39,752 nt of DNA from a virus: positions 1 to 39,752 of IMG/VR virus record IMGVR_UViG_3300040815_000410. One strand, 5' to 3'. The translations under genes and the position numbers were made by a program. Shown piece by piece: positions 811 to 35,401 of the stretch; within the stretch, counting starts at the first letter, position 1, and each line of letters opens with the position of its first letter. Under the pieces are notes generated by a model. It made no database searches. It was not told the origin of the DNA and saw only the letters and a program-made list of their open reading frames with translations.

Positions 811-818
811 TATAAATA
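811..818 (+). promoter_or_regulatory. T4-type late promoter abutting the gp25 start codon
   Basis: Exact TATAAATA ending 5 bases before the ATG at 824. With the usual T4 late geometry (start 6 bases after the last A), transcription would begin on the A of the ATG. No Shine-Dalgarno is visible before 824, consistent with a leaderless message. Confidence 0.7.
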
Positions 819-18632: not shown

Positions 18633-19190
18633 AAAGTATTCAGAATACCAACCATCCCAACCTTTTTCTTGTAGATGGTGCATTTGACCTAAAGTGCATA
18701 CACTAAATTGTGGTGGTTTTTGATACATGTAATCTTTAATTGAAGGACAAACTTTATCATAAGTTTTATATTTGATATTTTTATAATACCATTCATCACT
18801 ACCTCTTGTATATGTTTTTATATAATATTCATCATATTTTTTAAATTTATCCCATATATAAGATACATCACCAGTCCATGATACTATAGATGAGTTCAGA
18901 GGTGTATGGGCACGTTCTCTCCACCATGTATCATCTAATAGTGTAAAATCTTTTCTTATAAGATCAGGTAACTTATCATAGATAACTAAATCTAAATCAA
19001 AGTATAGATTTTCACCATCTCTAAACCTATCATACATTTGAAACTTATTAAACCAATTGCCATATAGATCATCTTCTATAACTTCAAAACTATCATACTT
19101 TAGACCAGAGTATTCGTCTATCATATGTTTTAGGTTATCAACATGCCATTGATTAAACTTATCACCAAATCTACAACAAATTATTCTCAT
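18621..19190 (-). CDS. Small glycosyltransferase-like protein (GT-A type)
   Basis: 189 residues, last gene of the leftward operon. MRIICCRFGDKFNQWHVDNL at the start and GENLYFDLDLVIYDKLPDL (about 59-77) carry a DxD motif, the metal and nucleotide-sugar binding signature of GT-A enzymes. NSSIVSWTGD follows where family members have a conserved N-G/S acceptor loop. It is short for a GT-A enzyme, so either minimal or truncated at the C-terminus. The ATG overlaps the stop of the preceding nitroreductase-like gene (ATGA). No donor or acceptor can be named. Confidence 0.6.
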   Translation of the reverse strand: MRIICCRFGDKFNQWHVDNLKHMIDEYSGLKYDSFEVIEDDLYGNWFNKFQMYDRFRDGENLYFDLDLVIYDKLPDLIRKDFTLLDDTWWRERAHTPLNSSIVSWTGDVSYIWDKFKKYDEYYIKTYTRGSDEWYYKNIKYKTYDKVCPSIKDYMYQKPPQFSVCTLGQMHHLQEKGWDGWYSEYFLQR

Positions 19191-20014
19191 TTAATTTCGT
19201 ATATATTAATTTCACGTGGAATATTTGACATGGTATAGAAAACAGCTTTGTCTGGTAACTCATGTACATTACCATAAGGGTCAGTTGCCTTATCTGATTT
19301 AGTTACATCAACAACTGAACATTGTCTATATTTCCAACCTCTTACATCTCGTTCTTCACCTCTGTCCTTTGAGGAAAGATTGTGACCATTAGCTGCACCT
19401 ATTATTAATTCTTTATCATCTGATTCATTTCTAGGTCTTCCTTCTTGCGGATAACCTATACCTATTCCGTACAACATCTTTTTCTTTTTATGTATGTATA
19501 TATCTTCATATATACCCATTCTACGTTCCCAATTAAAATCACAATCAGGTCCTTGACTATTATTCTTATTACAACCAGTTGCATAACCTAATTCAGCTGC
19601 TGATCTCATAACTAATCCTAACGCAGTACCTACTGCAACTAATCCATTTTCCCATCTAGCTGGATGATCTGTTGGAGTAACAGAACCCTCATTTAAATAA
19701 TTTCTACTTGTTGGTGGATGTTTCATAACAAATAACATAAACATATTAGCGTTCATTTGTGGATTACGCCACGTTGCAGGTGGTTTACCTGAATGAGTAA
19801 ATCCCCACGACCACTTATAAAGTTCTTCTATAACTTTTCTATCAGTTGAATAATGAATATCATAATATGCTTCATGTTGTTTTGATGGTGCATTTTGAGC
19901 TACCCACAAAAGATGATCAACATGCTCTTTAGGTATAGTCTTTGAATAGTCCCAATTTCTTTGACACTTTTGAATTTTTTTTATATATTCTTTTTCTTGC
20001 TCTATATCAACCAT
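19187..20014 (-). CDS. Nitroreductase-like FMN oxidoreductase, divergent
   Basis: 275 residues. The family pattern is visible: an N-terminal helix with QRNWDYSKTIPKEHVDHLL (about 18-36), WVAQNAPSKQHEAYYDIH (the conserved aPSk.n.q segment), then RWENGLVAVGTALGLVMRSA with AELGYATGCNKN, the helix and Gly-rich turn that contact FMN. The first position of the usual RRS motif is replaced by QRN. A C-terminal section with YGIGIGYPQEGRPRNE is typical. It is longer than and distinct from the two tandem nitroreductase-like proteins encoded at 24451 and 25156. Start overlaps the upstream radical SAM gene by 8 bases. The substrate is unknown; a flavin-dependent reduction or dehydrogenation is expected. 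Confidence 0.7.
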   Translation of the reverse strand: MVDIEQEKEYIKKIQKCQRNWDYSKTIPKEHVDHLLWVAQNAPSKQHEAYYDIHYSTDRKVIEELYKWSWGFTHSGKPPATWRNPQMNANMFMLFVMKHPPTSRNYLNEGSVTPTDHPARWENGLVAVGTALGLVMRSAAELGYATGCNKNNSQGPDCDFNWERRMGIYEDIYIHKKKKMLYGIGIGYPQEGRPRNESDDKELIIGAANGHNLSSKDRGEERDVRGWKYRQCSVVDVTKSDKATDPYGNVHELPDKAVFYTMSNIPREINIYEIK

Positions 20015-21425
20015 TGTAATATTCCTTTAGTTCTGGAAATACTTCAAATAAATGTGATTCCCATTTTGTTCCTACATATGCTTTGTCCTGTTGTAACATA
20101 TAGTTTAACGTGTCCTGAAAATCATTGTCTGGTTCTTCATCCATTCGTAATGCAGCTTGAATATCAGGCCAGCCTTCATATTTTGGTATAAGTTGATCTT
20201 TTAGTTTTCTAGGTAGATTATGTACTCTTAATGATTTAGGTCTTTCAATCATCAACCAACCTGCACCTCTAATCCCAGGATTATCTCTACAATATTTAAT
20301 TACTTCATCAAATCGTAAAACACTAAAACATGTAATTACAGAATTAACATCAACGTGTGCCTTACCTTTGTATTTGTCTGAATTTAATAATGCTATATTT
20401 TCTTCTATTTCTTTCCAGTTTGATCTTCTTCTTAAATACTCAGCATTCTGATTAATACCATCAATAGAAGCAGTAAATGAAGTTTCTTTAAATTTAGGCA
20501 CAAAGTCAATAAATTTATGTTTGCCTTCGCCTAATTTTGTAAGATTAGTTTGAAATTTAATTTTTATGTGAGGTGCGTGTCCTGTTTTTACTATTTCTTC
20601 TAAAAACTCAAAATACTTTTTCATTATCAATGGCTCACCACCTATAATTTTTATACTATTAAGATATGGAGCAAGTTCTTTTATTTGTTCAATAACATCT
20701 TTTTTGTCTATTTTATTTAAATTATCTTCAACAAGTTTAATTTTATGATTTGTTTTTTCCATTGAACCAAACATCTTTTCACTATAAACATCATGTTTTC
20801 TCATCATATCAATACGCATAGATGAGCTGTCATGGTTACACATATGACAATCTAAATTACATTCTACACCAAAAGACTTTAATTGTATTTGCATTATTCT
20901 TTCGTCAAAAGTCCATACACCTGTCTTCTCGTACATTCTAACGTTTCTTTCTATAGCATCCCAACGTTCTTTAGTACTTGACTCTTTCCACATATGGTGT
21001 GTTCTACGAGATTTACCATATCTCTTTTCATCACTAATACATCTTATACAATGTTCATTAATTGCTTTAGTACCATGTTTTGCAGGATCTAACATTTCTT
21101 TTCTTAAATCATTCATATATTTACTATCTTCCATCCATGATTTTATAGATGTATTGTTTATATTATGATCTTTACTTCCAGCTGCAAGACAACACGCTTT
21201 AAATCTACCATCTAATTCTATAAACATCTCACTAAAAGGAAAATGACAGAACCAACTTCTCTTATCTTTTGCTCTATTCATAATAGAGTTAGGGTCTTTT
21301 TTTCGTTCTTCACCATCTTTTGATAATGTTTCAAACCAACCTGAAGTATCAACATCACCTGGCTTACTGTTAGATACAGCAGTCATTCTTTTTTTATGTA
21401 ATCTCTTATCTAATTTATTTTGCAT
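20007..21425 (-). CDS. Radical SAM enzyme with N-terminal twitch/SPASM domain
   Basis: 472 residues. A cysteine-rich N-terminal domain comes first: Cys60 in SWFCHFPFSEMFIELDGRFK, Cys78-Cys79 (ACCLAAG), and Cys126/Cys129 (HCIRCISDE), a twitch/SPASM auxiliary-cluster pattern. The radical SAM core follows, with Cys189, Cys193 and Cys196 (GVECNLDCHMC, CxxxCxxC) and GGEP at 262-265. Placing the auxiliary domain before the core is the reverse of most SPASM enzymes. It should cleave SAM to a 5'-deoxyadenosyl radical; the substrate is unknown. AGGA lies about 8 bases before the ATG at 21425, favouring it over the internal Met14. Overlaps both neighbours by about 10 bases. Confidence 0.85.
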   Translation of the reverse strand: MQNKLDKRLHKKRMTAVSNSKPGDVDTSGWFETLSKDGEERKKDPNSIMNRAKDKRSWFCHFPFSEMFIELDGRFKACCLAAGSKDHNINNTSIKSWMEDSKYMNDLRKEMLDPAKHGTKAINEHCIRCISDEKRYGKSRRTHHMWKESSTKERWDAIERNVRMYEKTGVWTFDERIMQIQLKSFGVECNLDCHMCNHDSSSMRIDMMRKHDVYSEKMFGSMEKTNHKIKLVEDNLNKIDKKDVIEQIKELAPYLNSIKIIGGEPLIMKKYFEFLEEIVKTGHAPHIKIKFQTNLTKLGEGKHKFIDFVPKFKETSFTASIDGINQNAEYLRRRSNWKEIEENIALLNSDKYKGKAHVDVNSVITCFSVLRFDEVIKYCRDNPGIRGAGWLMIERPKSLRVHNLPRKLKDQLIPKYEGWPDIQAALRMDEEPDNDFQDTLNYMLQQDKAYVGTKWESHLFEVFPELKEYYNG

Positions 21426-22140
21426 TTCGTGGTCCTAAATAGTGAATAATTTTTATTTTTTCGTGTGGGTCACCTAGTATCATATAATCTGTATTAAACT
21501 TCTTACTATACATTTTATTTAGTTCTATGTTTTGTCTGTCTTCATTTGTGTATTTAACGATCCACTCACCAGGTAGATACTTAATATTTGCTTTGTGTTC
21601 ATCAAGTTTCCAAAAGACATAGTTTTGTTCGCCATAATATTTGTAATGAACATCACCTTTGTTATAGTAATGTAATTGCCAGTATTCAGGATTTAATGAG
21701 AAGTCGTCCCATACATATTTAAAACTACCTGACTTAAACTTATAAAAACCACCATTGATAGGTATTATAACTCTATCAGCAAATTTATTTGTTTTAACAT
21801 TCCACCAACTATCATATGTAAGTAATTCACCTTCTTTTACAGGATAGTTTAGTATCTCATCAACGTTACCTACAATCTGTTGATCAATATCCATTATTAT
21901 AATATCATCGCCAGGATTTTGATATGCAAATTGAGGACTAAAGTATTTTAATTTATGCCAGTGTTTCTTAATATTACTATGATGATTATAAGGTAATACT
22001 ACATCTGCCTCAACGTCTGTATCACTTAAACAAATAAACTCAAAAGGCACAGTACTATTTTCTTTTAGTGATCTATACAATTTTGATACATGTTCAGGTT
22101 TATATAAACCTTCAAAATATACAGTACAAATTTTAAGCAT
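21415..22140 (-). CDS. Glycosyltransferase-like protein (GT-A, DxD)
   Basis: 241 residues from the ATG at 22140. An in-frame TTG at 22212 would add 24 residues, but the ATG is preceded by GGAGAG at a good distance and shares ATGCTTAA with the upstream stop, the usual overlap in this operon. MLKICTVYFEGLYKPEHV, PFEFICLSDTDVE and WHKLKYFSPQF match a family of marine phage and bacterial transferases. DDIIIMDIDQQIVGNVDEIL carries the DxD and the strand-turn after it; INGGFYKFKSG is the acceptor-side loop. Probably adds a sugar from a nucleotide donor onto a glycan or protein. Confidence 0.72.
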   Translation of the reverse strand: MLKICTVYFEGLYKPEHVSKLYRSLKENSTVPFEFICLSDTDVEADVVLPYNHHSNIKKHWHKLKYFSPQFAYQNPGDDIIIMDIDQQIVGNVDEILNYPVKEGELLTYDSWWNVKTNKFADRVIIPINGGFYKFKSGSFKYVWDDFSLNPEYWQLHYYNKGDVHYKYYGEQNYVFWKLDEHKANIKYLPGEWIVKYTNEDRQNIELNKMYSKKFNTDYMILGDPHEKIKIIHYLGPRNAK

Positions 22141-23002
22141 TATTGTATGCTCTCCAAACAACTTCAAATTTTTTATTGATAGCATGACATAGTACAACTG
22201 ATTTAGGTACAAAACCTTGATCAGAAAAGAAGTAATGCCATTTCTGATTTAACCATTGTATTGGTATATCATTTTCTGCTATCTTAACTGCAAACAATGT
22301 TTCATTATCCCAACCAAAAAAGTCTGTAATCTTTTTAGGATACATCTCATGGCCTTTAGTTAGTCTGCTCATTTCTGCCATATCAGAATCAAAGTTATCA
22401 AAGTATTTTAATTTTTGTATGTACTCTTTACTTGCACCAACAATACCTGTATTGACTACATGATGTTTAGGATTTAATTCTCTATCTAATAACATTGCTT
22501 GAGCGTTATAATATTTTGCTGTTGGACTACGAATAGTTTGTGATCTTTCAGTTACGTCTTCCATAGGAATAACTTTATGTGTATTGTGTTGTATCGCAAT
22601 ACCTTTTGATAAGTCCCATGCCTCAAAGAAATTATCACCGTGCATAGGTACTACATCAAAATCTAAATAAAGTATTTCATCATATTGTTCAGCAAGTTTA
22701 TAAAACAAATGTATCTTATAAAAATTTACTACATTGTATGCTGTAATATATGGATACTTTCTTTGCATATTTTCTTTATATAAGATAAAATCTACATCAT
22801 ACTCAAACATTTTAAAATCTACGCCCAATTGTTTTGCGTACCATTTTTTACAAGCTACTAATTTTGTATAATTTTGTTTAAAGGCATCCTTTGTAACATA
22901 ATTAATAGGTACAGATTTATTTGCTATTAATATATTCTTATCAAATATATCCAATTCTTCTTTTGGTATATCAATGTAAAAACTATATATTATTCTTTTC
23001 AT
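22133..23002 (-). CDS. Glycosyltransferase (GT8-like, DxD)
   Basis: 289 residues from the ATG at 23002; a TTG at 23014 would add four residues (MVNF) and is less likely, although neither start has a strong Shine-Dalgarno. The central AEQYDEILYLDFDVVPMHGD carries the DxD of GT-A enzymes of the GT8/GT32 type. HHVVNTGIVGASKEYI is the typical NTG loop, and DFFGWDNETLFAVKI the downstream acidic motif. The C-terminus (VVLCHAINKKFE) has the conserved His expected after the donor site. Overlaps the methyltransferase gene by 20 bases and the next transferase by 8, so it is part of a coupled glycan-modification set. Confidence 0.75.
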   Translation of the reverse strand: MKRIIYSFYIDIPKEELDIFDKNILIANKSVPINYVTKDAFKQNYTKLVACKKWYAKQLGVDFKMFEYDVDFILYKENMQRKYPYITAYNVVNFYKIHLFYKLAEQYDEILYLDFDVVPMHGDNFFEAWDLSKGIAIQHNTHKVIPMEDVTERSQTIRSPTAKYYNAQAMLLDRELNPKHHVVNTGIVGASKEYIQKLKYFDNFDSDMAEMSRLTKGHEMYPKKITDFFGWDNETLFAVKIAENDIPIQWLNQKWHYFFSDQGFVPKSVVLCHAINKKFEVVWRAYNNA

Positions 23003-23591
23003 AAAATTTACCAACTATCATAAATCTAGTTCCTCTATCATCTGTAATACTATCTTCAACTAATACTTTAGCGTTTTCAGGCAATTGATTTTTAAATTCT
23101 TCATTATCATTTACACAATTAACATGACCTTTTATATCAAACATATTATTTGATGTAAAGGCAAAGTAAGCATTAGAGTCATGTAGTGCTTTTAGTTCTT
23201 TCATAGGTTTCATATGCTCACAAGAAGTATTAATTATGAGATTAGCATATCGTATTCGTCCGTATCTATTTTCGTTGAACACATCACTTGTTATAAAATC
23301 TACATTTTCATAATGATTAAATATTCTACTTTTTGCCATACTAACAACAGCTTTATCTAAATCAATTAACGATATTCTTTTTGCTTCTTTTAAAGCAGGT
23401 ATCAATATACTGCCATACCAACCACCTAGTATCGTAATTTCAGATTTATCATTTACAACGTTTAAATCTCTAATATGAGATATTAATTTTTCTTTAGTTT
23501 TAAATTGATTAGGACTAAATGAATCTAAAAGATCATTATTGTGTCTGGCTTCTGCCATTATATTCTTAAACAGTTGTAAATCAATGTTCAT
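22983..23591 (-). CDS. SAM-dependent methyltransferase-like protein (class I)
   Basis: 202 residues. The Rossmann-type motif I appears as ITILGGWYGSILIPAL (Gly56-Gly60 region), followed by the acidic strand end RISLIDLDKAVVSMAKSR (Asp77/Asp79, ribose binding) and NVDFITSDVFNE (motif III). ANLIINTSCEHMKPMKEL occupies the catalytic loop. No DNA-methyltransferase (D/N)PP(Y/W) motif is present, so a small molecule, sugar or protein target is more likely. The start forms TAATG with the upstream PP-loop gene stop. Confidence 0.7.
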   Translation of the reverse strand: MNIDLQLFKNIMAEARHNNDLLDSFSPNQFKTKEKLISHIRDLNVVNDKSEITILGGWYGSILIPALKEAKRISLIDLDKAVVSMAKSRIFNHYENVDFITSDVFNENRYGRIRYANLIINTSCEHMKPMKELKALHDSNAYFAFTSNNMFDIKGHVNCVNDNEEFKNQLPENAKVLVEDSITDDRGTRFMIVGKFYEKNNI

Positions 23592-24460
23592 TATATTTTA
23601 TGAGCTGTAGATATTTTATATCTTTCCATTGTTTCTGGTGAATTGAAATCATAGACACCATATGCCCAATATTTTTCTCTACAAGGCCAACATATTTTAC
23701 ATGGTTCTTTACCTGGATTTCTATATGTTCTATTATGTTCTTTAGCATAAACAGGATACATATGTATTTCAGTTTCACATGATTCAGTAACAGGAAATAA
23801 AGTTTTATCAAGTCCCAACTCTCTTACCATATCTGCAACTTCTTTTTTATTCCAGTTACGAAAAGGTCTAAACTCATATTTGTGATGACCAAAATACTTA
23901 TCTCTAGTTTTAGAGAATAGTTTATCTTTTTTAGTATTTCTGTCATGTGGAAACTTTCTAAATTCGTGTGTGATGATTTCAGGTTGTTCTTCTACAGGTG
24001 GGTTTAAAGTTTCACCTGAAAGATATATGTTTAAGTTTACACCTAGTTTATGATACTTTTCCCACAATCCCCAAAAATGCTCTCTTTGAAAAATATCTTT
24101 CGGGTTATATTTTTGATTAGTTTTTTCCCAATTATCTATCATCTTTTGATTTTTCTTAAATCCTTCAGTTGTAAAAAACGCAATATCAGAATGTAAAAGA
24201 TTTTCATTTTCTGGTTTTAAGATACTTAATGCGTTAAGAACATTATCTACAACATCCATAGCTGCAGGTCTTAATTGGTTAAATAATGTAATTGGTAATA
24301 TTTTCTTATTAGGATATTTACTCATTGTGAGAAAACACAAGAACGCTGAGTCTATACCGCCACTCAACCTCATTCCTATTATATCTTGTTCGGATATTAT
24401 TTTGTCAATATCTGGTGTAAATACTTTATCTAGTATTTTGTTTAATTTTTCTATATCCAT
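23591..24460 (-). CDS. PP-loop ATPase, QueC-like with four-Cys zinc site
   Basis: 289 residues. IGMRLSGGIDSAFLCFL holds the PP-loop SGGIDS (33-38), which binds ATP and adenylates a carbonyl substrate. The C-terminal section has Cys228 (TESCETE) and Cys254, Cys257, Cys260 (EPCKICWPCREKYWAYG), the arrangement of the zinc site in 7-cyano-7-deazaguanine synthase (QueC). At 289 residues it is longer than QueC (about 230), and no QueD, FolE or guanine transglycosylase gene is seen here, so a preQ0 role is not assured; another amidation or nitrile-forming reaction is possible. GAAGGAGA precedes the ATG at 24460, which overlaps the nitroreductase stop by 10 bases. Confidence 0.75.
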   Translation of the reverse strand: MDIEKLNKILDKVFTPDIDKIISEQDIIGMRLSGGIDSAFLCFLTMSKYPNKKILPITLFNQLRPAAMDVVDNVLNALSILKPENENLLHSDIAFFTTEGFKKNQKMIDNWEKTNQKYNPKDIFQREHFWGLWEKYHKLGVNLNIYLSGETLNPPVEEQPEIITHEFRKFPHDRNTKKDKLFSKTRDKYFGHHKYEFRPFRNWNKKEVADMVRELGLDKTLFPVTESCETEIHMYPVYAKEHNRTYRNPGKEPCKICWPCREKYWAYGVYDFNSPETMERYKISTAHKI

Positions 24461-25152
24461 TTTATTATCTCCTTCATTTCAGGTTTAATATCTTCATGTT
24501 TTATTTTCCAATCTTCCATGTCTTCTTGTCTATATCTCTTAGCATATCCACAACTCATCATAACAATGGGTCTAGTGTCAACCATATTTAGGCCTGCTTT
24601 ATGCCAGTTATGTGGCCTTCTATTGAAACAAGAGTTATAAGATATATCAAGTCCTTCTTCTAACAAATAGTTTGTCAAGTTTGCAATGAATATACCTACT
24701 TCTACTGCAACACTATCAATTATCTTTTCTATATGACTTTCATGTGCTTGATCAAAGAAGTGACCTGTTTCAACTTGTTTCTGATAATAAACATTTGGTT
24801 GAGCAAGTCTGCTGTGTACCGTAATTAAATATGGGTTTTCTTTTACGTGTTTATAATATGGGTTTTCATATATACCTACTTTTGCGCCTTGAGTTTGTAT
24901 CGCTTGACCATCTTTAACTGCTTGATCTTCTACATCAGCATGACACTTCACTACTAAACCATGTATTGCCTCTTTCTCTTTCACTTTATCAGGTCCCCAT
25001 ACAAGTGCCTGATACGCCATTGCATTATTTTTAGACGGTGATGTTTTCCACGCCTTGTATAATGCTCGTTCTATAATTTCTTTAGGTGGAATATCTTTTT
25101 TATAAGTCTTTACGTGTTTTCTTTTTTGTTCTAATAAATCAAAATGTTTCAT
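24451..25152 (-). CDS. Nitroreductase-like protein, tandem copy B
   Basis: 233 residues. Nitroreductase fold: LLEQKRKHVKTYKKDIPPKE at the N-terminus (FMN phosphate-binding K/R position), ALYKAWKTSPSKNNAMAYQ (about 31-49), then IIDSVAVEVGIFIANLTNYL and the LEEGLDISYNSCFNRRP turn, and a C-terminal RPIVMMSCGYAKRYR. It is a paralogue of the adjacent upstream gene at 25156: the motifs, lengths and order match throughout, and stretches around 24647-24678 and 25349-25381 remain nearly identical in DNA. Such proteins usually work as dimers with FMN; two copies could form a heterodimer. Three bases separate the two genes. Confidence 0.78.
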   Translation of the reverse strand: MKHFDLLEQKRKHVKTYKKDIPPKEIIERALYKAWKTSPSKNNAMAYQALVWGPDKVKEKEAIHGLVVKCHADVEDQAVKDGQAIQTQGAKVGIYENPYYKHVKENPYLITVHSRLAQPNVYYQKQVETGHFFDQAHESHIEKIIDSVAVEVGIFIANLTNYLLEEGLDISYNSCFNRRPHNWHKAGLNMVDTRPIVMMSCGYAKRYRQEDMEDWKIKHEDIKPEMKEIIKWI

Positions 25153-25155
25153 TTT

Positions 25156-25845
25156 TTATACCCATGTAATTATATCCTGATGTTCAGGTTTTACATCTGT
25201 CTTATGAGCTGCACTTCCCATATGATTTCTTCTATATACTTCACCATAACCACAACTTAACATTAATATAGGTCTAGTTGTAATATTAGTCAATCCCCAT
25301 TTTTGCCAATATTTAACTTCTCTTGTAAAACAAGAATTATACGATACATCAAGTCCTTCTTCTAATAAATTGTTTGTTAAGATTTGAGCAAATAGTCCTA
25401 CTTCTACAGCAACACTATCAATTATTTTGCTCATATGGCTTTTGTGTGCTTGATCAAAAAACATACCTTTCTTTTCAATACTTTCTTTATGATATTCGTT
25501 AGGTGTAGCAAGTCTTTGATGAAATGTAAACATATAAGGATTAGTTCTTATATGTTCAAAATATTTGTTACCTGTAGATACTGATACAGCTAATCCTTCT
25601 TTTAATCCTGTTTTTTCAGTTTCAATGCAAGATTTTTGAGTTAGATTATATAATGCTTGTTTTTCAGATTTTTTATCAGGACCCCAAACAACAACCTCAT
25701 ATGCCATTGCATTGTTTTTTGAAGGAGTTGTTTTCCATGCTTTATATAATGCGTCTTCTATTATTTCCTTGTCTGGTATTTTATCACTATAATTGAATAC
25801 TTGTTTTCGTTTTGTTTCTAATAAATCAAACGTGTTCATTTGCAT
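25156..25845 (-). CDS. Nitroreductase-like protein, tandem copy A
   Basis: 229 residues, paralogue of the neighbouring copy at 24451. Shared blocks: LLETKRKQVFNYSDKIPDKE, ALYKAWKTTPSKNNAMAYEV, FFDQAHKSHMSKIIDSVAVE, LLEEGLDVSYNSCFTRE and RPILMLSCGYGEVYRR. The central section (about 60-110) is the least alike, so substrate preference may differ. ATG at 25845 is preceded by AAGG at a proper distance; a second ATG at codon 3 is possible. The start overlaps the end of the carbamoyltransferase gene by 10 bases. Reaction unknown; FMN-dependent oxidation or reduction of a small molecule or peptide ring is expected for the fold. Confidence 0.78.
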   Translation of the reverse strand: MQMNTFDLLETKRKQVFNYSDKIPDKEIIEDALYKAWKTTPSKNNAMAYEVVVWGPDKKSEKQALYNLTQKSCIETEKTGLKEGLAVSVSTGNKYFEHIRTNPYMFTFHQRLATPNEYHKESIEKKGMFFDQAHKSHMSKIIDSVAVEVGLFAQILTNNLLEEGLDVSYNSCFTREVKYWQKWGLTNITTRPILMLSCGYGEVYRRNHMGSAAHKTDVKPEHQDIITWV

Positions 25846-27341
25846 ATTACCTTTCCGTTAATTACTAACATGTCCAATTGTGTTCTCTTAAAGGTATTTA
25901 TTGCTTCTTTAGGACTCTCTACTATAGGCTCTCTACAATTAAAACTAGTATTCAATAACATTGGTATGCCTGTTATCTTATAAAACTCATTAATAATATT
26001 GTAAAACTTTTCGTTAAATTTTTTATTAACAGTTTGTATTCTTGCTGTATTATCAACGTGTGTAATACCTGGTACTGTATCTTTCTTAACTTTACATATT
26101 CTACTCATATAAGGACTAGGCAATCTCGTATCAAAATATTCTTTGTAATGTTCTTCTAATACAGCAGGTGCAAAGGGTCTAAAGTCTTCTCTCATTTTTA
26201 TAGTATGATTGATAATATCTTTAATATTAGGATTACGTGGGTCTGCAAGTATTGATCTATTACCTAATGCACGATTACCACTTTCTGATTTGCCTTGAAA
26301 CCACCCGACTATCTTACCATCAGCAATTGCCTGAGCAATCTTTTTATAGTCAGCGTCTTCGCCTACATTATGTTCGTATTCTATACCAGCAAATGTTTCT
26401 GTTTTATGTACATTATAATTTATCATATAATCAGCATGTTGATAAACACCTATTGCTTGTCCTTCATCACCTACAGCAGGTGGTACAAATACATTCTCAT
26501 AATGTTTTGTAAATTCTTCATTCATATATCCATTGTAAGCAACGCCACCTGCAATACATAAGTTATCACAAGTTTTTAATGGATAGACATATTCTTTTAT
26601 TTTATCTATTGTAAATTTTTGTAGTGTATGTGCTAAATCATCTATGTTGTCTAACTTAATCTGTTTAAAATGTGCTTGTTTCTTTTCAGTTATAGGTCCT
26701 GATAATATAGTTTCAAATATGTTGTAGTAGTATTCACTATATTTACCATACCCAACTTTACCCATTAACTTACTAGCACCTAGTGTGCCAAAACCTGTTA
26801 AGTTAGACATATGATTCCATAACCAACCAATAGGTAGTTTATCTGACAAGTCTATTAACTTTAGGTCTTTGTCAAAGAATACACATCTAAATTTTGATCC
26901 TATACCATCAATTGCTAGTATATCTGATTGTTCAAAATTAGAGTTTATAAAAGCATATGTGGCGTGTGATTGATGATGGTCTATATAATATATTCCGTCT
27001 TTATAATAATAGTCCCATAACGTTTTAGGATCATAATTAAATATTTCATCATGCCCTTTTAATGTTGTATTAAGTAATTCTTCTTTTGCTTTTCTTATAC
27101 CACCATAGGTATATGTAAATGCTAAAATACCATTGTCAGGTCTTTTAAAATACTTTTCAGTAAATTCATCATTCAATCTATAGTCGCCAGGATTTAATAT
27201 GTCTGATTGATGATCATATGCCTCAGCATGATAGGGTAGATTATGTTTAAATCTAGTAAATCTTTCTCTTTGATTATGAAAGACACCATCATATGTATTG
27301 TGGTCGTGTAAATTTAGTGCTACTGCAAATATTTTAGCCAT
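25836..27341 (-). CDS. NodU/TobZ-type O-carbamoyltransferase
   Basis: 501 residues. The family transfers a carbamoyl group from carbamoyl phosphate through carbamoyl-AMP to a sugar or antibiotic hydroxyl. The N-terminal Kae1-like domain has RERFTRFKHNLP, the metal-binding IDHHQSHATYAF (HxxxH), ILAIDGIGSKFRCVFF and CIAGGVAYNGYMNEEF. The C-terminal YrdC-like domain has GWFQGKSESGNRALGNRSIL, REDFRPFAPAVL and PMLLNTSFNCREPIVESP. The usual HDSSA near the N-terminus reads HDHNT here, and the protein is about 70 residues shorter than TobZ. All main catalytic motifs look intact. Related enzymes are known in marine myoviruses. Overlaps both neighbours by 8-10 bases. Confidence 0.88.
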   Translation of the reverse strand: MAKIFAVALNLHDHNTYDGVFHNQRERFTRFKHNLPYHAEAYDHQSDILNPGDYRLNDEFTEKYFKRPDNGILAFTYTYGGIRKAKEELLNTTLKGHDEIFNYDPKTLWDYYYKDGIYYIDHHQSHATYAFINSNFEQSDILAIDGIGSKFRCVFFDKDLKLIDLSDKLPIGWLWNHMSNLTGFGTLGASKLMGKVGYGKYSEYYYNIFETILSGPITEKKQAHFKQIKLDNIDDLAHTLQKFTIDKIKEYVYPLKTCDNLCIAGGVAYNGYMNEEFTKHYENVFVPPAVGDEGQAIGVYQHADYMINYNVHKTETFAGIEYEHNVGEDADYKKIAQAIADGKIVGWFQGKSESGNRALGNRSILADPRNPNIKDIINHTIKMREDFRPFAPAVLEEHYKEYFDTRLPSPYMSRICKVKKDTVPGITHVDNTARIQTVNKKFNEKFYNIINEFYKITGIPMLLNTSFNCREPIVESPKEAINTFKRTQLDMLVINGKVICK

Positions 27342-28203
27342 TTAATAACCTCGCATATTTTCTCATAGGAAAGTGACCTTTAGGTTCAACCCATTCCATA
27401 CATGTTTTACAATAGTTTTCATATTTAAACAATTGAAAATTCATCATCTTATCTACGTTTTCCTGTGTTATGTCAAATGTTTTTGAGTGAATAATATTAT
27501 TCGCAAATTTCTTACTACAATGTACAATCTTTCTTGTTTCAAAATTGATAACAGGTACCATAGGAAAGGCTGCACACATCTTACGATCTATTTCATCTGC
27601 TTGAGTATGTACTTCTAATACATCATCTTTGTTAGGTGTTCTACCATTAAATGATTTCCACATTGTATTCTTGTGATCTAACTGTTTCATTTCTTCAGGA
27701 AACAGATGTTTATATTTAAAAAAGTTAGGTGTTTTTACACATAGATTGTAATTGTTATAATCATTTTCTTTTATATAACCATAAGGTGGTAGTAAATCTA
27801 AACTACCAAGTTTTTTAATACCATCTTCGTAAAAATCTAATATGTTATGTTCAACATAAAGTATATCAGGATCTTTTAGTATATGTGGATATCTTTTACG
27901 TACAAAAGAGTTTGATAGTACTGAACACACATGATTAGGATTCTTTTTAACTTCAGCAATAACATCATCTAAATTCTTAATAAGGCCTGGCTCACCACCT
28001 AAAAGACAAACACGTATCTTATAATTTCTTAAATAGTGTAATGTTTGTTTTAGGAAATCAATATCAACTGTCAAGTTTCTCATCTCTAAAGTATAACTCG
28101 TACAATAATGACAATCTTTATTACATGACATTGACATAAAGAAGTCTATGGCTAAATAATTTTCTTGTATTTCTTGTAACGTTTTCAATTTCCTGCTCTC
28201 CAT
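27334..28203 (-). CDS. Radical SAM enzyme with C-terminal SPASM-like cysteines
   Basis: 289 residues. Cys27, Cys31 and Cys34 (SMSCNKDCHYC) form the CxxxCxxC [4Fe-4S]/SAM site; VCLLGGEPGLIKNLDDV holds GGEP at 69-72. In the C-terminal part Cys210 (KMCAAFPMVPVINFE), Cys229 (IVHCSKKF), Cys265 and Cys268 (YCKTCMEW) could bind an auxiliary cluster as in SPASM/twitch enzymes. So this one has both parts in a single chain, in the usual order, unlike its neighbours. It is compact (typical 350-400). It overlaps the radical SAM core gene just upstream by 19 bases. Substrate unknown. Confidence 0.82.
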   Translation of the reverse strand: MESRKLKTLQEIQENYLAIDFFMSMSCNKDCHYCTSYTLEMRNLTVDIDFLKQTLHYLRNYKIRVCLLGGEPGLIKNLDDVIAEVKKNPNHVCSVLSNSFVRKRYPHILKDPDILYVEHNILDFYEDGIKKLGSLDLLPPYGYIKENDYNNYNLCVKTPNFFKYKHLFPEEMKQLDHKNTMWKSFNGRTPNKDDVLEVHTQADEIDRKMCAAFPMVPVINFETRKIVHCSKKFANNIIHSKTFDITQENVDKMMNFQLFKYENYCKTCMEWVEPKGHFPMRKYARLLNG

Positions 28204-28808
28204 TTTTTACTAGGCAATAAAGGATCATTTTCACCATTTTGCCATCTACCAGATTTCATAACATAAAAATCAACACCTATATCTCTAGCCATTTGCTTAC
28301 ATGTATCTATATCGTTTTCATTATAGTTAAATACAATGTATTGCCACATAGGTTTTTTATATAGTATTTTAGTGGCTTCTTTCATAACTCTAAATAACTT
28401 TTCACCGTCTTGGTTGATACGATACTTATGGCTATCTTTAGGAAGACCATCTATAGAAAATCGCCACAACGCTCTTGGATTTGTTTTAAATGCTTCTATA
28501 TACCACTTTTCAGATTTAGCTGCACTAGCATGTTGAACAGCCACACTTATTTCTTTATCATAACACATCTTTAATATTTCTAAAAATTTAGGATGGTGCA
28601 CAGGATCTGAATATTGTCCTTCAAAGTTTATATGATTAAAATATTTTATTAACTTATTAAAACTATCTATAGGCACATCTACACCTGGTACTTTCTTACC
28701 TTCGTTTACATAATCCCATTGTCTTGCACAATTAGGACATAATAAGGAACATCTATGAGTAGTATCTAAATTTATTGCATCTCTTTTGATAAATTCTTTA
28801 TAGTTCAT
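28185..28808 (-). CDS. Free-standing radical SAM core, pair 2
   Basis: 207 residues. Cys20, Cys24, Cys27 (HRCSLLCPNCARQW) make the CxxxCxxC cluster site. In place of GGEP it has FEGQYSDPVHHPKFLEILKM, where SDP aligns with GEP. LWRFSIDGLPKDSHKYRINQ and MWQYIVFNYNEND are strongly shared with the core encoded at 31540. The chain stops after the radical SAM barrel and has no SPASM domain; that domain is encoded by the overlapping upstream gene (28805-29209), joined by ATGA. The two products may work as a complex. Length is about half that of ordinary SPASM enzymes. Confidence 0.82.
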   Translation of the reverse strand: MNYKEFIKRDAINLDTTHRCSLLCPNCARQWDYVNEGKKVPGVDVPIDSFNKLIKYFNHINFEGQYSDPVHHPKFLEILKMCYDKEISVAVQHASAAKSEKWYIEAFKTNPRALWRFSIDGLPKDSHKYRINQDGEKLFRVMKEATKILYKKPMWQYIVFNYNENDIDTCKQMARDIGVDFYVMKSGRWQNGENDPLLPSKKWRAGN

Positions 28809-29209
28809 TTTTTCTCTTTTGTGTATCTTTGTGAATAAGTAGATTTTTCATAATCTACTATATTTCCCTCTTTGTCATAATGAGTATCTTCTCTTGTTGC
28901 CTTAATAGGCGTTCCATCAGTTTTAGTACCACAAGTTTCTAAACATGCTAAACATGGTGGTATATCTTTTGTTAAAAGATCGTAAAATTCTTTCCATTCT
29001 TTAGTTTCAAATATGTCATCTATCTTGTTATAGTCTGATACCTTGCTAACTTTAACTAATGGTTGAAACCGAGGATCTCTCATATTCTTCTTACTATCAC
29101 AATAACAACAAGGTAGTAACTCACCTTTGTTTGACATAGCAAAAGGAAACTTTTCAAAACACATAGGTTTCATTTTTATGTTTTTTATATCTTTATATCT
29201 GTTGGTCAT
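28805..29209 (-). CDS. Free-standing SPASM/twitch protein, pair 2
   Basis: 134 residues, no radical SAM core. Cysteines lie as in SPASM/twitch auxiliary domains: Cys17 (KPMCFEKFPFAMSNKGE), Cys34, Cys35, Cys37 (LLPCCYCD), then Cys86, Cys89, Cys93 (PPCLACLETC). The DIFETKEWKEFYDLL helix is the standard iFn..ew..fr segment of SPASM domains. Closely related to the protein at 31212. Here the SPASM gene is upstream of its radical SAM partner, opposite to the other pair. The final 35 residues are hydrophilic and lack cysteine. It presumably binds one [4Fe-4S] cluster and helps place substrate in its partner. Confidence 0.75.
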   Translation of the reverse strand: MTNRYKDIKNIKMKPMCFEKFPFAMSNKGELLPCCYCDSKKNMRDPRFQPLVKVSKVSDYNKIDDIFETKEWKEFYDLLTKDIPPCLACLETCGTKTDGTPIKATREDTHYDKEGNIVDYEKSTYSQRYTKEKK

Positions 29210-30455
29210 AAAATTTATTAAAGGCTATCTTTAACTTTCTTTTGTTTTTAAATGGTTCTTCTTCTATGTAACCTGGTGTTTGATATATCTTCTCTACAAT
29301 ATATTCGTAGATAGGTTCTGTTGTTTCTTTTAGTAAACTTTTATCAAATAGATCATCACCTAATATTTTTTTCATATCATCTACAAATTGATCTTTCTTG
29401 TATTCTAACGTAAGTATGATTGTTTGAATAATCTTATTAACTTCTTGTTTAGTCATCCATGGGTGTATAGGTAAAGACAATATAGTATCACAAACTATTT
29501 TGCTTATAAACATATCATCTGCTCTATGTTCTATTTCTCTATACATTTTGTTTTCAGATAATGGTAACTCATAATGTACTTTTGCGTCTAATACTTTTTT
29601 AAGATTATCTCTAACTTCTTTATTTTGTAATCTGATAACATACTTGTGATAGTTATGGTCTAAACCATTTGTTGTAGGTTGTATTGTAACATATTCTTGT
29701 AATTGTTCATCATACATTTTAGCAATTTCTTGTCTTCTATTTTGCCATTCTTTCATCTTACTTAATCTAAAATTAATAAACTCGGCATTCATTAATAACA
29801 TTTTAGAGTTGTAACCTAATATCTCACGCTCACCATGTTTTCTTAACTTCTTAAACATCTCTGCTTTTTCTTTGTCATCTGTACAGATAGCCCCACCACC
29901 TGCAATCCCAGCAACAACTTTGTTTGCATTGAAACTTAATGTTGATATGTCACCTATTGATCCTGCCTTGACACCATTTAGACTTGCACCTAGTGATTGA
30001 GCTGCGTCTTCAATAAATGCGATATTCTTTTCTTTACAAAATTCTAATATCTCTTTTGTATCTGACATGTTACCAAATAGATGTGGATAAACAATTGCTT
30101 TTACTTTGTCCGAATACATACGTTTAATACTATCTAATGACATATGATAAGACAATATATCAATCTCACAAAATACAGGTGTTGCACCGACCATAGATAC
30201 ACAAGACGCTGAAGATATCCATGAGAATTGTGGTACTAATACCTCGTCACCTTTTCTTATACCTAAACTTCTTAAAGCAAAATGTAATGCGTCTGTGCCG
30301 TTACTACACGCAACAACATATTTTCTACCTGTGTATAGTTTAAGTTTATTTTCTAAAAACTCAACGTTTGCTTCCTGTTCTTTTTGCATTGACTTTTCAA
30401 AAAGTTGTAGATAATCAACTTTGTTTTCTTTAAAATCTCTATCCCAACATGTCAT
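29193..30455 (-). CDS. DegT/DnrJ/EryC1/StrS-type sugar aminotransferase
   Basis: 420 residues. PLP-dependent transamination of nucleotide keto-sugars, for amino sugars in surface glycans or antibiotics. Motifs: ACSNGTDALHFALRSLGI (49-66), EVLVPQFSWISSASCV, VYPHLFGN (123-129), AFIEDAAQSLGASLNG with Asp150 (PLP pyridine contact), and STLSFNANKVVAGIAGGG with Lys179, the Schiff-base lysine, where GIAGGG replaces the usual GEGG. After the normal end near residue 365 there is an extra tail of about 55 residues (EPIYEYIVEKIYQTPGYIEE), not part of the family. GAGG precedes the ATG. Overlaps the neighbours by 17 bases each. Confidence 0.87.
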   Translation of the reverse strand: MTCWDRDFKENKVDYLQLFEKSMQKEQEANVEFLENKLKLYTGRKYVVACSNGTDALHFALRSLGIRKGDEVLVPQFSWISSASCVSMVGATPVFCEIDILSYHMSLDSIKRMYSDKVKAIVYPHLFGNMSDTKEILEFCKEKNIAFIEDAAQSLGASLNGVKAGSIGDISTLSFNANKVVAGIAGGGAICTDDKEKAEMFKKLRKHGEREILGYNSKMLLMNAEFINFRLSKMKEWQNRRQEIAKMYDEQLQEYVTIQPTTNGLDHNYHKYVIRLQNKEVRDNLKKVLDAKVHYELPLSENKMYREIEHRADDMFISKIVCDTILSLPIHPWMTKQEVNKIIQTIILTLEYKKDQFVDDMKKILGDDLFDKSLLKETTEPIYEYIVEKIYQTPGYIEEEPFKNKRKLKIAFNKFYDQQI

Positions 30456-31215
30456 GTATAAACCTCGCTAGTTTTTGTTGTCCTTGTCTATTAGGATGTA
30501 AATCTATTTTTGATATTCTATCAGTAGTATTATCTAATACTTTATCAGATAAACTATAACCATTTAATCTTGGATCTGTAGGCCATCCTATAAAATTATT
30601 ATTAATTTTTTCATAATATGGACTATTGTGTATTTGTGCCAAGTACTCTTTTTCTCTTTTTTCTTTCCAATGTTTTTCATCAACTGTTAAATCTTCTGGT
30701 TTATTTAAAACAGGAATTTGTTTATTATCTAAAACTTGTTTTGTTCTTCTGTTGATAAGTTCTTGCCATAGATAACCTTTAAATAAATCTACCATTTGAA
30801 ATTGTTTATAAGGTAGTTTAAAATATTCACACACAGTTTGAAGACTATAATAATATCTTAATGACCTATCAATCCAATAATTCATAAAACCTTTTGTATC
30901 ATACATATCATTTGTCCATTTTGCTTTTTGTAAATATAAACTTTCTATCTGATAGTCACGTCTAGGTGCTGTACTCCAAGCTGCGATAACTAAACCTATT
31001 TTAGAGTGATCAATAGTTTGTAATTTATCAATTATATTGCTGTAGATATATTCTTGTCCTGCACCTGACTCACTAACATTTATAAGTTCCATATCTAATC
31101 TATCAGCAAGTAATTGTGGCCATTTAGGCCAACTAACATCTAATTCAGGATGGTGTATAGATGTAAATCTTTCGTTTGAATAACTACACCCAGCAACTAA
31201 TAATATTTTTTTCAT
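30439..31215 (-). CDS. SGNH/GDSL-family hydrolase-like protein
   Basis: 258 residues. Block I is ILLVAGCSYSNERF with Ser11 as likely nucleophile (GCS in place of GDS, common in phage members). ELINVSESGAGQEYIYSNII (about 43-62) supplies block II Gly and Asn. VIAAWSTAPRRDY covers the block III strand, where the usual GxND is replaced by AAWST. Block V is SKIDLHPNRQGQQKLARFI with Asp238 and His240. The family includes sugar O-acetylesterases and acetyltransferases. The long middle (about 90-210) is aromatic and charged, without known domains. ATGA overlap with the upstream SPASM gene. A role in removing or adding acyl groups on a glycan fits the context but is inferred. Confidence 0.7.
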   Translation of the reverse strand: MKKILLVAGCSYSNERFTSIHHPELDVSWPKWPQLLADRLDMELINVSESGAGQEYIYSNIIDKLQTIDHSKIGLVIAAWSTAPRRDYQIESLYLQKAKWTNDMYDTKGFMNYWIDRSLRYYYSLQTVCEYFKLPYKQFQMVDLFKGYLWQELINRRTKQVLDNKQIPVLNKPEDLTVDEKHWKEKREKEYLAQIHNSPYYEKINNNFIGWPTDPRLNGYSLSDKVLDNTTDRISKIDLHPNRQGQQKLARFIHDMLG

Positions 31216-31550
31216 ATTAAGTCTTCTATTTTTTGTCTATCTCTACCTGTTCTTTTCTTACAATGAGTAATACAAGTAGGTATGACTTTTTTTAAATTTT
31301 TTTCTGCTAAATTTCTTGCAAAATCTTGCCATTCTTTTGTTAGTAATATATCTTCAATACTATTATGATCACTTATTTTACTAACTTTTAACATCTCTTT
31401 CATAACAGGATGTTCTAACGCACTAGATTGATCCATCCAACAACAAGGTATTAATTCACCTCTATTAGTCATTGCAGCTTGCATACGTTTTTCTATTGAA
31501 CCATGTGCTGGCATACATCTAGGTTCTAATATTATTTTATCAGATGGCAT
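31212..31550 (-). CDS. Free-standing SPASM/twitch protein, pair 1
   Basis: 112 residues. Cys12 (EPRCMPAHG), Cys36-Cys37 (MTNRGELIPCCWMD), Cys93 and Cys97 (IPTCITHC) form the auxiliary iron-sulphur pattern; NSIEDILLTKEWQDFARNL is the typical SPASM helix. No SAM-binding core. It starts inside the end of the radical SAM core gene (11-base overlap, different frame), with the core upstream: the same order as a normal single-chain enzyme, but split. A frameshift in the overlap could in principle fuse them. It is a paralogue of the protein at 28805, which has one more cysteine after CC. Confidence 0.75.
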   Translation of the reverse strand: MPSDKIILEPRCMPAHGSIEKRMQAAMTNRGELIPCCWMDQSSALEHPVMKEMLKVSKISDHNSIEDILLTKEWQDFARNLAEKNLKKVIPTCITHCKKRTGRDRQKIEDLI

Positions 31551-32202
31551 TAAGTGATACCTCTTTATTCTTTGGTCTTAATGGGTCATCATTATCATTC
31601 CAACGTGATGATTGTACTAACATAAATCCTACACCATTTTCTTTTGCCATTTGTTTAGCTTCTTCAATATGATCTTCATTATAGTTAAATATAATATATT
31701 GCCAAACTGGTGTTACCTCTAAATGTTTTTTAGATTCAATCATTATATTAAAAAGTTTTTTACCATCTTGGTTTACTCTATACTTGTGACTTTCTTCTGG
31801 TAAACCATCTATACCAAATATCCATTGAGCATGTGGATTTGCTTTAAAACATTTTATAAAATATTCTTTAGATTTTTGTGAAGCTGCATTATGTATTTCA
31901 ACTATAGTCTTTTTCTTATACAACATTTCTAATATTTCAGGAAACTTAGGATGATGTACAGGATCAGATAATTGACCACAAAAAATAAAATCATTATAAT
32001 AGTCTGATATTTTATCTATTTCTTTTAAAGTAAGATCACGTCCTGGTACTTTTTTACCCTCGTTACGCCATTGTCTTTGTCTTTGACATCTAGGACATTC
32101 AAGTGGACACCTAAAACTTATATCAATATTCAATGATCTTCTACTCATAAAATATTGAATATCTTTAGTTATCTCTAACTCTTTTTGTATTTCTTTGCTC
32201 AT
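31540..32202 (-). CDS. Free-standing radical SAM core, pair 1
   Basis: 220 residues. Cys32, Cys36, Cys39 (SFRCPLECPRCQRQRQW) bind the cluster that cleaves SAM. FCGQLSDPVHHPKFPEILEM replaces the GGEP region, and WIFGIDGLPEESHKYRVNQ plus VWQYIIFNYNEDHIEEAKQM match the core at 28185 almost block for block; both also share NEGKKVPG after the cysteines. The chain ends without SPASM cysteines; the overlapping downstream gene at 31212 supplies that domain. ATGA overlap with the gene upstream. Likely a two-component radical SAM enzyme; substrate unknown. Confidence 0.83.
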   Translation of the reverse strand: MSKEIQKELEITKDIQYFMSRRSLNIDISFRCPLECPRCQRQRQWRNEGKKVPGRDLTLKEIDKISDYYNDFIFCGQLSDPVHHPKFPEILEMLYKKKTIVEIHNAASQKSKEYFIKCFKANPHAQWIFGIDGLPEESHKYRVNQDGKKLFNIMIESKKHLEVTPVWQYIIFNYNEDHIEEAKQMAKENGVGFMLVQSSRWNDNDDPLRPKNKEVSLNAI

Positions 32203-33059
32203 ATTAGTTTTAATAAATTTTTTACTTTATCTTTACTTTGTGTTAGGCAGATCACAGGCCTATTCCAATATACTTTGCCGCCATCATGTTTATATTTATT
32301 CCTTAAATAAACGACTTCTTTTTTGAGCCATCTAAACTCCATGAATAGTCTTGGAGCAGGATCAAAGTTAGGTTTTGTATAGACATATGTTTCAAACTTA
32401 CCTAATATATTTGTGATTGGCACCATTAGATTGTTTAGTTTAGGGTTTATAAATTTGTCGTTGTATGTTATAATACCGTGATCAGGATAATTATGTATAT
32501 GTTTTTCTACTTCTCTATAGTATATCTCATTTGTGCCTAAAAACAAATACTTAAATTGTATATCTTCTTTTATAGGTTTGTATATACTAAAGTTTATTAT
32601 CTTTTCAAATTGTTCTCCTACACCATTGACATATACATCATGGTCGCATAAGTCATAAACTTTTTTAGGTTTGAAATATTGTAACGCAATAGGATATTCT
32701 CTAACATGATTTTCAGAATATACAGATATAAGATTACCACTAAACAATAAATGTAAAGTTAGAAGTTGATCATTATTGTAAGTATGTTTATTTAAGTATG
32801 CTAAAGTTATTTGACTTCTACCCATAATCAATGTTATATCATTTGACGTAGGTGTGTAAAAATCAAATATTACATTTTCATATTTGACATAACATTCATT
32901 TAGAGCATTGATATAAGATTGTTCAGAAAATCTATGGTCTCTTATGATTATCAGTTTTGCTTTTACACCTAAATCATTCAGAAAACAACAATGTTCATAA
33001 CTATAATGTAGAAGACCATCACCAGGCTTACTTGTACATACTATATTTACATTTTTCAT
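32199..33059 (-). CDS. Glycosyltransferase-like protein, first gene of leftward operon
   Basis: 286 residues. The start reads VNIVCTSKPGDGLLHYSYEH, like the N-terminal loop of GT-B transferases. The C-terminal part has GKFETYVYTKPNFDPAPRLF followed by MEFRWLKKEVVYLRN, resembling the GT-B donor-site segment in which a Pro-Arg and Glu precede a Gly or Leu turn. No DxD is clear. Identification is by overall pattern and is tentative; other nucleotide-binding proteins are possible. The ATG at 33059 lies 5-6 bases downstream of a perfect sigma70 promoter and has no Shine-Dalgarno, so it may be translated from a leaderless message. Stop overlaps the radical SAM start (ATGA). Confidence 0.5.
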   Translation of the reverse strand: MKNVNIVCTSKPGDGLLHYSYEHCCFLNDLGVKAKLIIIRDHRFSEQSYINALNECYVKYENVIFDFYTPTSNDITLIMGRSQITLAYLNKHTYNNDQLLTLHLLFSGNLISVYSENHVREYPIALQYFKPKKVYDLCDHDVYVNGVGEQFEKIINFSIYKPIKEDIQFKYLFLGTNEIYYREVEKHIHNYPDHGIITYNDKFINPKLNNLMVPITNILGKFETYVYTKPNFDPAPRLFMEFRWLKKEVVYLRNKYKHDGGKVYWNRPVICLTQSKDKVKNLLKLI

Positions 33060-33064
33060 ACTAT

Positions 33065-33093
33065 ATTATAACACATTTTATTATATCTGTCAA
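33065..33093 (-). promoter_or_regulatory. Perfect consensus extended sigma70 promoter of the 18-gene operon
   Basis: On the minus strand TTGACA (33093-33088), a 17-base spacer ending TGT, then TATAAT (33070-33065): both hexamers perfect, optimal spacing, and a TGn extension of the -10. The expected start is at or within a base of 33059, the A of the first ATG. It should be recognised by unmodified host RNA polymerase, in contrast to the late promoters of the structural genes. Confidence 0.8.
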
Positions 33094-33104
33094 ATAGACG
33101 ACAC

Positions 33105-33112
33105 TATTTATT
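33105..33112 (-). promoter_or_regulatory. Possible late promoter upstream of the sigma70 promoter
   Basis: AATAAATA on the minus strand, matching the cyanophage late element NATAAATA. Expected start near 33099 with a leader of about 40 bases. It could keep the operon on late in infection, but a single 8-base match in AT-rich DNA is weak evidence. Confidence 0.35.
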
Positions 33113-33126
33113 GACTAAATAACTAT

Positions 33127-34296
33127 ATGATTTTAGACCAAAATATAGACTTTTCCAAGTTGAGAACATACAGATTAGATAGAGTAAAAAAAGAGCTAGA
33201 AAAACAAAATATAGAAGCCTGTATATTGTTTGATCCAGTTAATGTTAGATATGCGTTAGACACTACTAACATGAGTGTTTACAATTTACACAATTTAACA
33301 AGATATTGTTTTGTGCCAGTCAATGGACCAACAATTCTTTATGAGTATTTTGGTTGTGAATATCACGCTAAACATTTAAATCTAATTGACGAAATAAGAC
33401 CTGCAATCACATGGGATTATTTTAGTCATGGAGATCAGGCAGAAAAAGAATTAAAAAAATGGGTTAATGATATAAAAGATTTATCAAAATATTTTAAAAA
33501 TAAAAAAATCGCAATTGATGTAATTAATGGACCCGCTGTTACAGCATTGAATAAAGAAGGTATTGAAGTAGTTGACGCTAAATCAGTACTTGAACAGGCA
33601 AGAGTTATTAAATCACCAGAGGAACTAAAATGTATTAAAGAAGCAGTGAAAGTTGTAGAAATTGGTGTTACAAGAATGAGAGAAGAATTAAGAGCTGGCA
33701 TGACAGAAAATCAGTTATGGTCAATTTTACATAAAACAAATATTGAATATGGTGGTGAATGGATAGAAGGCAGATTATTAGCTTCAGGTCATAGAACAAA
33801 TCCTTGGATGCAACAATGTAGTCACAAAGTTATTGAAAGTGGAGAATTAGTAACTTTTGATACAGATACAGTTGCGTCTTATGGATACTTGGCTGATTTT
33901 TCCAGAGCTTTCGTTGAAGGAAATAAGTTTAGTGATTATCAGAAAAAATTATATTCAATTGCTGTTGAACAAATAAATCACAATTCAGAATTGATTAAAC
34001 CTGGTTTATCATTTAAAGAGTTTTTATCTAAATGTTATAAACTTCCAGAACCTTATTATGGTAATCGTTATCCTGCCATAGTTCATGGAACTGGTCTTTG
34101 TGATGAATGGCCATTTATTAAATGGAATACAGACGGCGGCGAACAAAGTGGACAATTTGAAAAAGATATGACTATTTCAGTTGAGGCATATGTAGGTGAA
34201 GTAGGTGGTAAAGAAGGTGTTAAATTAGAACAACAATTTCATGTTGGTGAAAATGGACTTGAATTATTATCCCACCATCCATTAGAGAATTTGTAA
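33127..34296 (+). CDS. M24-family metalloenzyme, DddP-like (DMSP lyase candidate) or Xaa-Pro peptidase
   Basis: 389 residues. An N-terminal creatinase/prolidase-type domain (about 10-155; IEACILFDPVNVRYALDTTN) precedes a pita-bread M24 domain (about 165-385). Metal ligands: Asp245, Asp247 and Asp257 (VTFDTDTVASYGYLADFSR), His320 (AIVHGTGLCDEWPF), Glu353 (TISVEAYVGE) and Glu368 (VKLEQQF). The DxD pair, its 12-residue distance to the third Asp, the 15-residue Glu-Glu gap and Asp326 six residues after the His follow the Fe-binding and catalytic pattern I recall for the DMSP lyase DddP, not that of prolidase or PepP. DMSP is a major substrate of SAR11 cells. Other M24 enzymes with FDTD exist, so activity remains open. 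Divergent from the leftward operon; no good promoter seen. Confidence 0.8.
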   Translation: MILDQNIDFSKLRTYRLDRVKKELEKQNIEACILFDPVNVRYALDTTNMSVYNLHNLTRYCFVPVNGPTILYEYFGCEYHAKHLNLIDEIRPAITWDYFSHGDQAEKELKKWVNDIKDLSKYFKNKKIAIDVINGPAVTALNKEGIEVVDAKSVLEQARVIKSPEELKCIKEAVKVVEIGVTRMREELRAGMTENQLWSILHKTNIEYGGEWIEGRLLASGHRTNPWMQQCSHKVIESGELVTFDTDTVASYGYLADFSRAFVEGNKFSDYQKKLYSIAVEQINHNSELIKPGLSFKEFLSKCYKLPEPYYGNRYPAIVHGTGLCDEWPFIKWNTDGGEQSGQFEKDMTISVEAYVGEVGGKEGVKLEQQFHVGENGLELLSHHPLENL

Positions 34297-35393: not shown

Positions 35394-35401
35394 TATAAAT
35401 A
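35394..35401 (+). promoter_or_regulatory. T4-type late promoter abutting a start codon
   Basis: Exact TATAAATA followed by GTAGT and the ATG at 35407. The expected start coincides with the ATG, as at 811, and there is no Shine-Dalgarno. It marks the return to structural genes. Confidence 0.7.

Follow-up and report, generated by a model that had tools for sequence, protein, structure and literature searches.

A sigma70-class, predicted leaderless promoter and an upstream T4-type late box in front of a cargo operon of a pelagimyophage-like virus

In the present study, we analysed a stretch of 39,752 bases (hereafter the window), the record IMGVR_UViG_3300040815_000410, which represents part of the genome of a T4-related, pelagimyophage-like marine myovirus. 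We consider it likely that its 18-gene leftward operon is served by a compound promoter, made of an inner sigma70 part for early or mid-infection, leaderless expression and an outer T4-type late box, and that this cargo operon has moved between late only and early plus late expression. The operon would be a block of cargo genes in the host-recognition island of the virus. At the inner part, the host RNA polymerase would recognise the -35, TGn and -10 elements through sigma70 and, with the -10 lying 5 nt from the ATG, would transcribe the first gene early or in mid-infection as a leaderless mRNA. From the outer part, 45 nt from the ATG, a gp55-type late polymerase would transcribe the same operon later. 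Gain or loss of the sigma70 module between the late box and the ATG would then switch its expression from 'late only' to 'early plus late' or back.

Table 1. Coordinates of the features in the window
Feature	Position	Strand	Remark
18-gene operon	18621..33059	-	all 18 ORFs leftward
First operon gene, predicted GT-B-fold glycosyltransferase	32199..33059	-	AlphaFold2 model
Start codon ATG of first operon gene	33057..33059	-	predicted transcription start at or within the ATG (leaderless)
-10 hexamer TATAAT	33065..33070	-	perfect match
Extended -10 TG	33072..33073	-	one base before the -10
-35 hexamer TTGACA	33088..33093	-	perfect match
Late-type box AATAAATA	33105..33112	-	45 nt before the ATG, reads into the operon
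Weak late-like box ACTAAATA	33114..33121	+	putative; spaced from the divergent gene by exactly 5 nt, as in the 5-nt class
DddP-like (DMSP lyase family) gene, divergent	33127..34296	+	profile and alignment
Late box TATAAATA	811..818	+	leaderless class; ATG at 824, 5 nt away
Late box TATAAATA	35394..35401	+	leaderless class; ATG at 35407, 5 nt away
PHROG glycosyltransferase	21415-22212	operon	profile
Proteins with DXD-like motifs	22133-23014; 18621-19190	operon	read by eye
Convergent overlap of 12 bp, operon end and rightward gene 18036-18632	18621..18632	.	no intrinsic terminator found

On the minus strand, the bases from 33093 to 33065 read TTGACA-GATATAATAAAATGTGT-TATAAT with a spacer of 17 nt, so that the features of a sigma70-type early promoter (-35, spacer of 17±1, TGn and -10) were all found. 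The first-pass annotation had described this TG-extended site as reading into the operon at 5-6 bases from its first codon, and both points held, the gap between the -10 and the first codon (33059) being 5 nt here and 5-6 nt in 24/24 upstreams of relatives. It was the sole 12/12 site in the window. Shuffling the whole window gives an expectation of 0.11 such sites, and shuffling only the 66-nt upstream regions of the 38 tested genes one of 0.0025. Matches of 9-10/12 were no commoner in the window than in shuffles and, therefore, weight was placed only on the site at 33093..33065.

The conservation of this site was followed in 48 related loci of the first gene with readable upstream, many of them near-copies, which gave 24 distinct upstreams of 60 nt. 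TATAAT and the TG were invariant in all 24, and the -10 stood 5 nt from the ATG except in two, where the distance was 6 nt. A -35 matching at least 5/6 was present in 23/24, with a spacer of 17 nt (16 in one), and exact TTGACA in just 5/24. Since the -10 and TG are invariant while the exact -35 is not, the perfect -35 of the window is a local detail. Among 18 distinct 32-mers, the spacer positions carried little information and the -10 was again invariant. Judged from these upstreams, the extended -10 and its distance from the ATG are held by selection, and 33093..33065 is well supported as a sigma70-class, predicted leaderless promoter.

Transcription from sigma70 promoters generally starts about 6-9 nt past the -10. 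From this rule and the 5-6 nt between -10 and ATG, the start is predicted on or next to the start codon and the mRNA of the first operon gene to be leaderless, in agreement with a missing SD. A point against it is that the A of the ATG lies just 6 nt past the -10, near the lower limit of the usual start distance. Its translation would then be leaderless as well. Like the early promoters of T4 (PMC2988021), the operon promoter has a -35, TGn and -10 matching the host sigma70 polymerase in a T4-related phage; unlike them, its -10 lies 5-6 nt from the ATG, in a predicted leaderless arrangement, and a late box stands just upstream. An UP element would be only a possible part of the operon promoter.

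The timing class of such sites was evaluated in related genomes. In Pelagibacter phage Mosig EXVC030M (MT647606), the nearest cultured relative of the window among annotated phages, late boxes (NATAAATA) stood before 12/31 structural versus 2/26 replication-class genes (Fisher p 0.007), and sigma70 sites of at least 10/12 before 0/31 versus 5/26 (Fisher p 0.016), with class labels assigned by us from the annotation names. The in-gene background in Mosig was 0.85% for late boxes and 2.4% for sigma70 sites. A 165-kb relative (G002) carries the operon behind TTGATA-17-TATAAT. Its 12/12 sites at gene starts lie in early/middle replication and regulatory blocks, among others at gp55, a nuclease and the gene preceding gp33. 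Within its late block of about 28-120 kb the sigma70 site of the operon is the only one of at least 11/12 at a gene start. In this phage group (Mosig, G002), sigma70 sites thus accompany prereplicative genes and, because of this class separation, we regard the operon as having an early/middle-class promoter inside a late block. Published RNA time courses cover the pelagiphages HTVC022P and HTVC027P, and none was found for this group.

It is unlikely, in our opinion, that the site is a middle promoter, prereplicative but delayed, at which sigma70 sites are reached only after an early phage protein has acted. T4 does possess a separate class of middle promoters, and the sigma70 sites of this group stand before typical middle genes (primase, gp55, nuclease); however, profiles that recovered the T4 proteins as control, and that could miss distant homologues, found neither MotA nor AsiA in Mosig, HTVC008M or G002, the three related genomes covered (the window itself being a fragment). 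Furthermore, the -35 of the operon promoter is the sigma70 element TTGACA and no MotA box (TGCTT) occurs near -30. As MotA and AsiA were not found, the usual distinction of early and middle may not exist here, and sigma70 promoters in this group may be used for middle expression in addition to early. Transcription of the operon at once, as proposed in the first-pass annotation, would then be only one possibility.

The promoters on the operon side were given in the first-pass annotation as the sigma70 site alone. That site stands, but a second box, AATAAATA at 33112..33105 on the minus strand, had been overlooked. Late promoters of T4 and the cyanomyophages carry TATAAATA and are read by gp55/gp33/gp45, and the same octamer stands at structural genes there as here. 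The box before the operon is a close variant of it, upstream and on the correct strand, and a gp55-type start is predicted at this place; gp55, gp33 and gp45 are annotated in Mosig. In the relatives, where the late box takes the form A/G/T/C-ATAAATA, the NATAAATA box was kept in 23/24 distinct upstreams at 44-46, 35 or 14 nt from the ATG; the clade L040-L043 has the sigma70 promoter and no such box. ATAAATA was depleted in the window (13 found versus 29.7 expected), with three copies on the minus strand, of which the operon box is the intergenic one. Most copies in the window lie where promoters are expected, which would fit selection against stray late boxes. A late transcript from the operon box would have a leader of about 40 nt and, as this leader lacks an SD, its translation is uncertain.

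The relation between the two parts was seen most directly in close relatives. The first genes of L055, L057 and L066 and those of L059, L060, L061, L064 and L068 are closely related in the tree, and their upstreams differ, in an otherwise clean alignment, by a single 38-bp piece which holds the entire sigma70 promoter. In the loci without this piece exactly 5 nt separate the late box from the ATG, and they are predicted to be left with a leaderless late promoter. The first-gene tree implies at least six switches between promoter states. The operon of L058, L062, L063 and L065 is flipped, so that it runs colinear with the late genes; it abuts the preceding late-side gene (17518-type) and has no promoter of its own. 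Mosig carries a related operon (60990-71305 of MT647606), likewise opposite to the flanking late genes and similar in gene order and place, but differing from that of the window in an extra nitroreductase as first gene and in a start made of late box, 5 nt and ATG, predicted leaderless, with no sigma70 site. In sequence, relatives wire the same operon late, early-plus-late or inside a late transcript, and its timing seems to be dual and open to switching in evolution. L053 and L054 carry a distant form of the operon with rearrangements, L054 on a much larger viral contig of 261,806 bases.

These data also bear on the description of the operon as early. The sigma70 promoter that the first-pass annotation described holds, and is conserved and of a class with prereplicative association, but exclusive earliness is not supported, given the late box in 23/24 upstreams and Mosig, which has the late box only. 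It is accordingly improbable that the operon is purely early, transcribed from the sigma70 promoter alone immediately after infection with the late box irrelevant. Such an operon would agree with a strong, perfect and conserved promoter, with the clade which has no late box and with a would-be late leader without SD, but not with a box kept at three different positions in most relatives, nor with relatives that are late-only or colinear with late genes. Doubtful too is the suggestion that the AT box, rather than being a late promoter of the operon, acts as an UP element or belongs to the promoter of the divergent gene. An AT-rich box at 45 nt does fall in the UP-element region, and a TAAATA motif in mirror orientation points towards the divergent gene; however, the box lies at 35 or 14 nt in other clades, and the same box takes the 5-nt leaderless late position where the 38-bp piece is lacking. 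A chance match of the sigma70 site in AT-rich DNA, where sites of 9-10/12 do occur at shuffle frequency, has a negligible probability and was ruled out by the shuffles and by its position, orientation and invariance in relatives.

The preferred reading of an inner sigma70 part and an outer late box is accompanied by a leaderless class of late promoters. In the window, TATAAATA boxes occur on the plus strand only (195, 811, 5713, 7105, 15764, 15770, 35394 and 36087), and many precede baseplate/tail-type genes. The earlier claim of structural genes with late promoters on both sides of the operon was borne out to this extent, but the immediate neighbours of the operon are not structural. Among late boxes within 60 nt of a start in Mosig, HTVC008M, G002 and the window, 24/94 lay exactly 5 nt away, with starts taken from a simple ORF caller and some genes orthologous between genomes; the pooled binomial p of 7e-22 overstates independence, and the same peak was present in each of three genomes. 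The corresponding counts were 0/15 in T4 70-120 kb (most at 21-28 nt), 0/4 in Syn9 and 1/4 in P-SSM2. An SD-like motif was found in 3/22 genes of the 5-nt class versus 25/32 with boxes 12-40 nt away (p 4e-6). Unlike in the T4 and Syn9 samples, about a quarter of these pelagimyophage-type late boxes thus lie exactly 5 nt from the ATG, and leaderless late promoters with little SD look general in pelagimyophages and not in T4. Our search of mostly openly available literature found no report of leaderless T4-like late genes, and in a pelagimyophage survey (PMC7029224) the prediction of middle and late promoters had failed.

A wider reading is plausible, although we hold it tentatively: in pelagimyophages, early as well as late expression would be partly leaderless, with whole cargo operons retimed by gain or loss of a sigma70 module of about 38 bp between late box and start codon, so that one indel would make a late operon early (plus late), with leaderless mRNA in both states. 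Neither this promoter architecture nor the 38-bp switching is described in the accessible part of PMC7029224.

To the right of the operon lie the DddP-like enzyme and a protein of unassigned function, and to the left mainly genes without virion match. The DddP-like gene matched NCBIfam DddP (E 9.5e-96, 321 bits, below the curated 600), and its protein keeps the metal-site motifs FDTD, ADFSR, HG.GLCDEW, VEA and KLE of PDB 4rzy. It was present in six viral loci in IMG/VR, with no close one in annotated phages. At the other end, leftward transcription of the operon would meet the rightward gene at 18632, as had been noted before, and Mosig has a similar convergent overlap (71292-71305).

By its gene content, the operon points to the synthesis or modification of a sugar or glycan, plus radical-SAM chemistry, and the product would be a surface glycan or a modified sugar. 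It encodes a GT-B-like glycosyltransferase, radical SAM proteins (including a twitch-domain one above the curated cut-off), SPASM-like proteins, a sugar-type DegT aminotransferase, a Nol/NodU-like carbamoyltransferase, a methyltransferase, three nitroreductase-family proteins, further glycosyltransferase-like proteins and a GDSL-like protein (by eye), in an order largely kept in dozens of viral loci. The first gene had no match in PHROGs or NCBIfam, and its fold came from the model (pLDDT 83), which gave VIA-align Z of 13.0 with PimA and 12.5 with T4 alpha-glucosyltransferase, and low Foldseek TM values of only 0.3-0.45. For two putative glycosyltransferases, nothing was found by sequence among solved structures. 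Two radical SAM cores each have a separate, slightly overlapping SPASM-like ORF with no fusion (31540-32202 with 31212-31550; 28185-28808 with 28805-29209). A PP-loop protein (23591-24460, minus strand) has SGGIDSA, a CxxCxxC end and weak matches to QueC and NAD synthase.

Small-molecule synthesis by the operon is possible, but a RiPP-type cluster was rejected, as no room for a precursor peptide was visible among the tightly packed genes (by eye, from the ORF list). The first-pass annotation had argued that early timing favours small-molecule synthesis over decoration of virions. This argument fails, since late promoters would drive the same operon in relatives and the genes are largely of glycan type; timing cannot decide the product when relatives wire the operon late, early-plus-late or into a late transcript. 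A host copy was also sought by genome-contig scan, in which the most conserved radical SAM protein led to two close relatives. Because both lie on short MAG contigs with the same operon order, one of which (L103) also bears phage genes, no host island was identified.

Profile searches of the window recognised baseplate wedge proteins, a PAAR protein, a fibre-assembly protein and fibre-like proteins, and the GC content was 29-35%. The host is probably SAR11, as the nearest relative is a Pelagibacter phage. According to PMC7029224 (Zaragoza-Solas 2020), the host recognition cluster of pelagimyophages is an island of large size and variable content, bounded by VrlC and the neck genes, with cassettes of glycosyltransferases and radical SAM proteins for which a change of the host surface against coinfection was proposed. 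The operon resembles it in island position, lying after the VrlC/baseplate genes and before further tail genes, and in the presence of glycosyltransferases and radical SAM proteins.

With the late boxes, the 5-nt class and the early class, transcription can be mapped in a testable way for phages that infect the most abundant bacteria of the ocean, and whose late promoters were earlier reported as unpredictable (PMC7029224). Whether auxiliary operons act early or late is a matter for which gene names are usually the sole argument. As close relatives naturally have or lack the sigma70 module, they would allow a direct test of whether such an operon works early, where it would change the host, or late, where it would change the virion or the dying cell.
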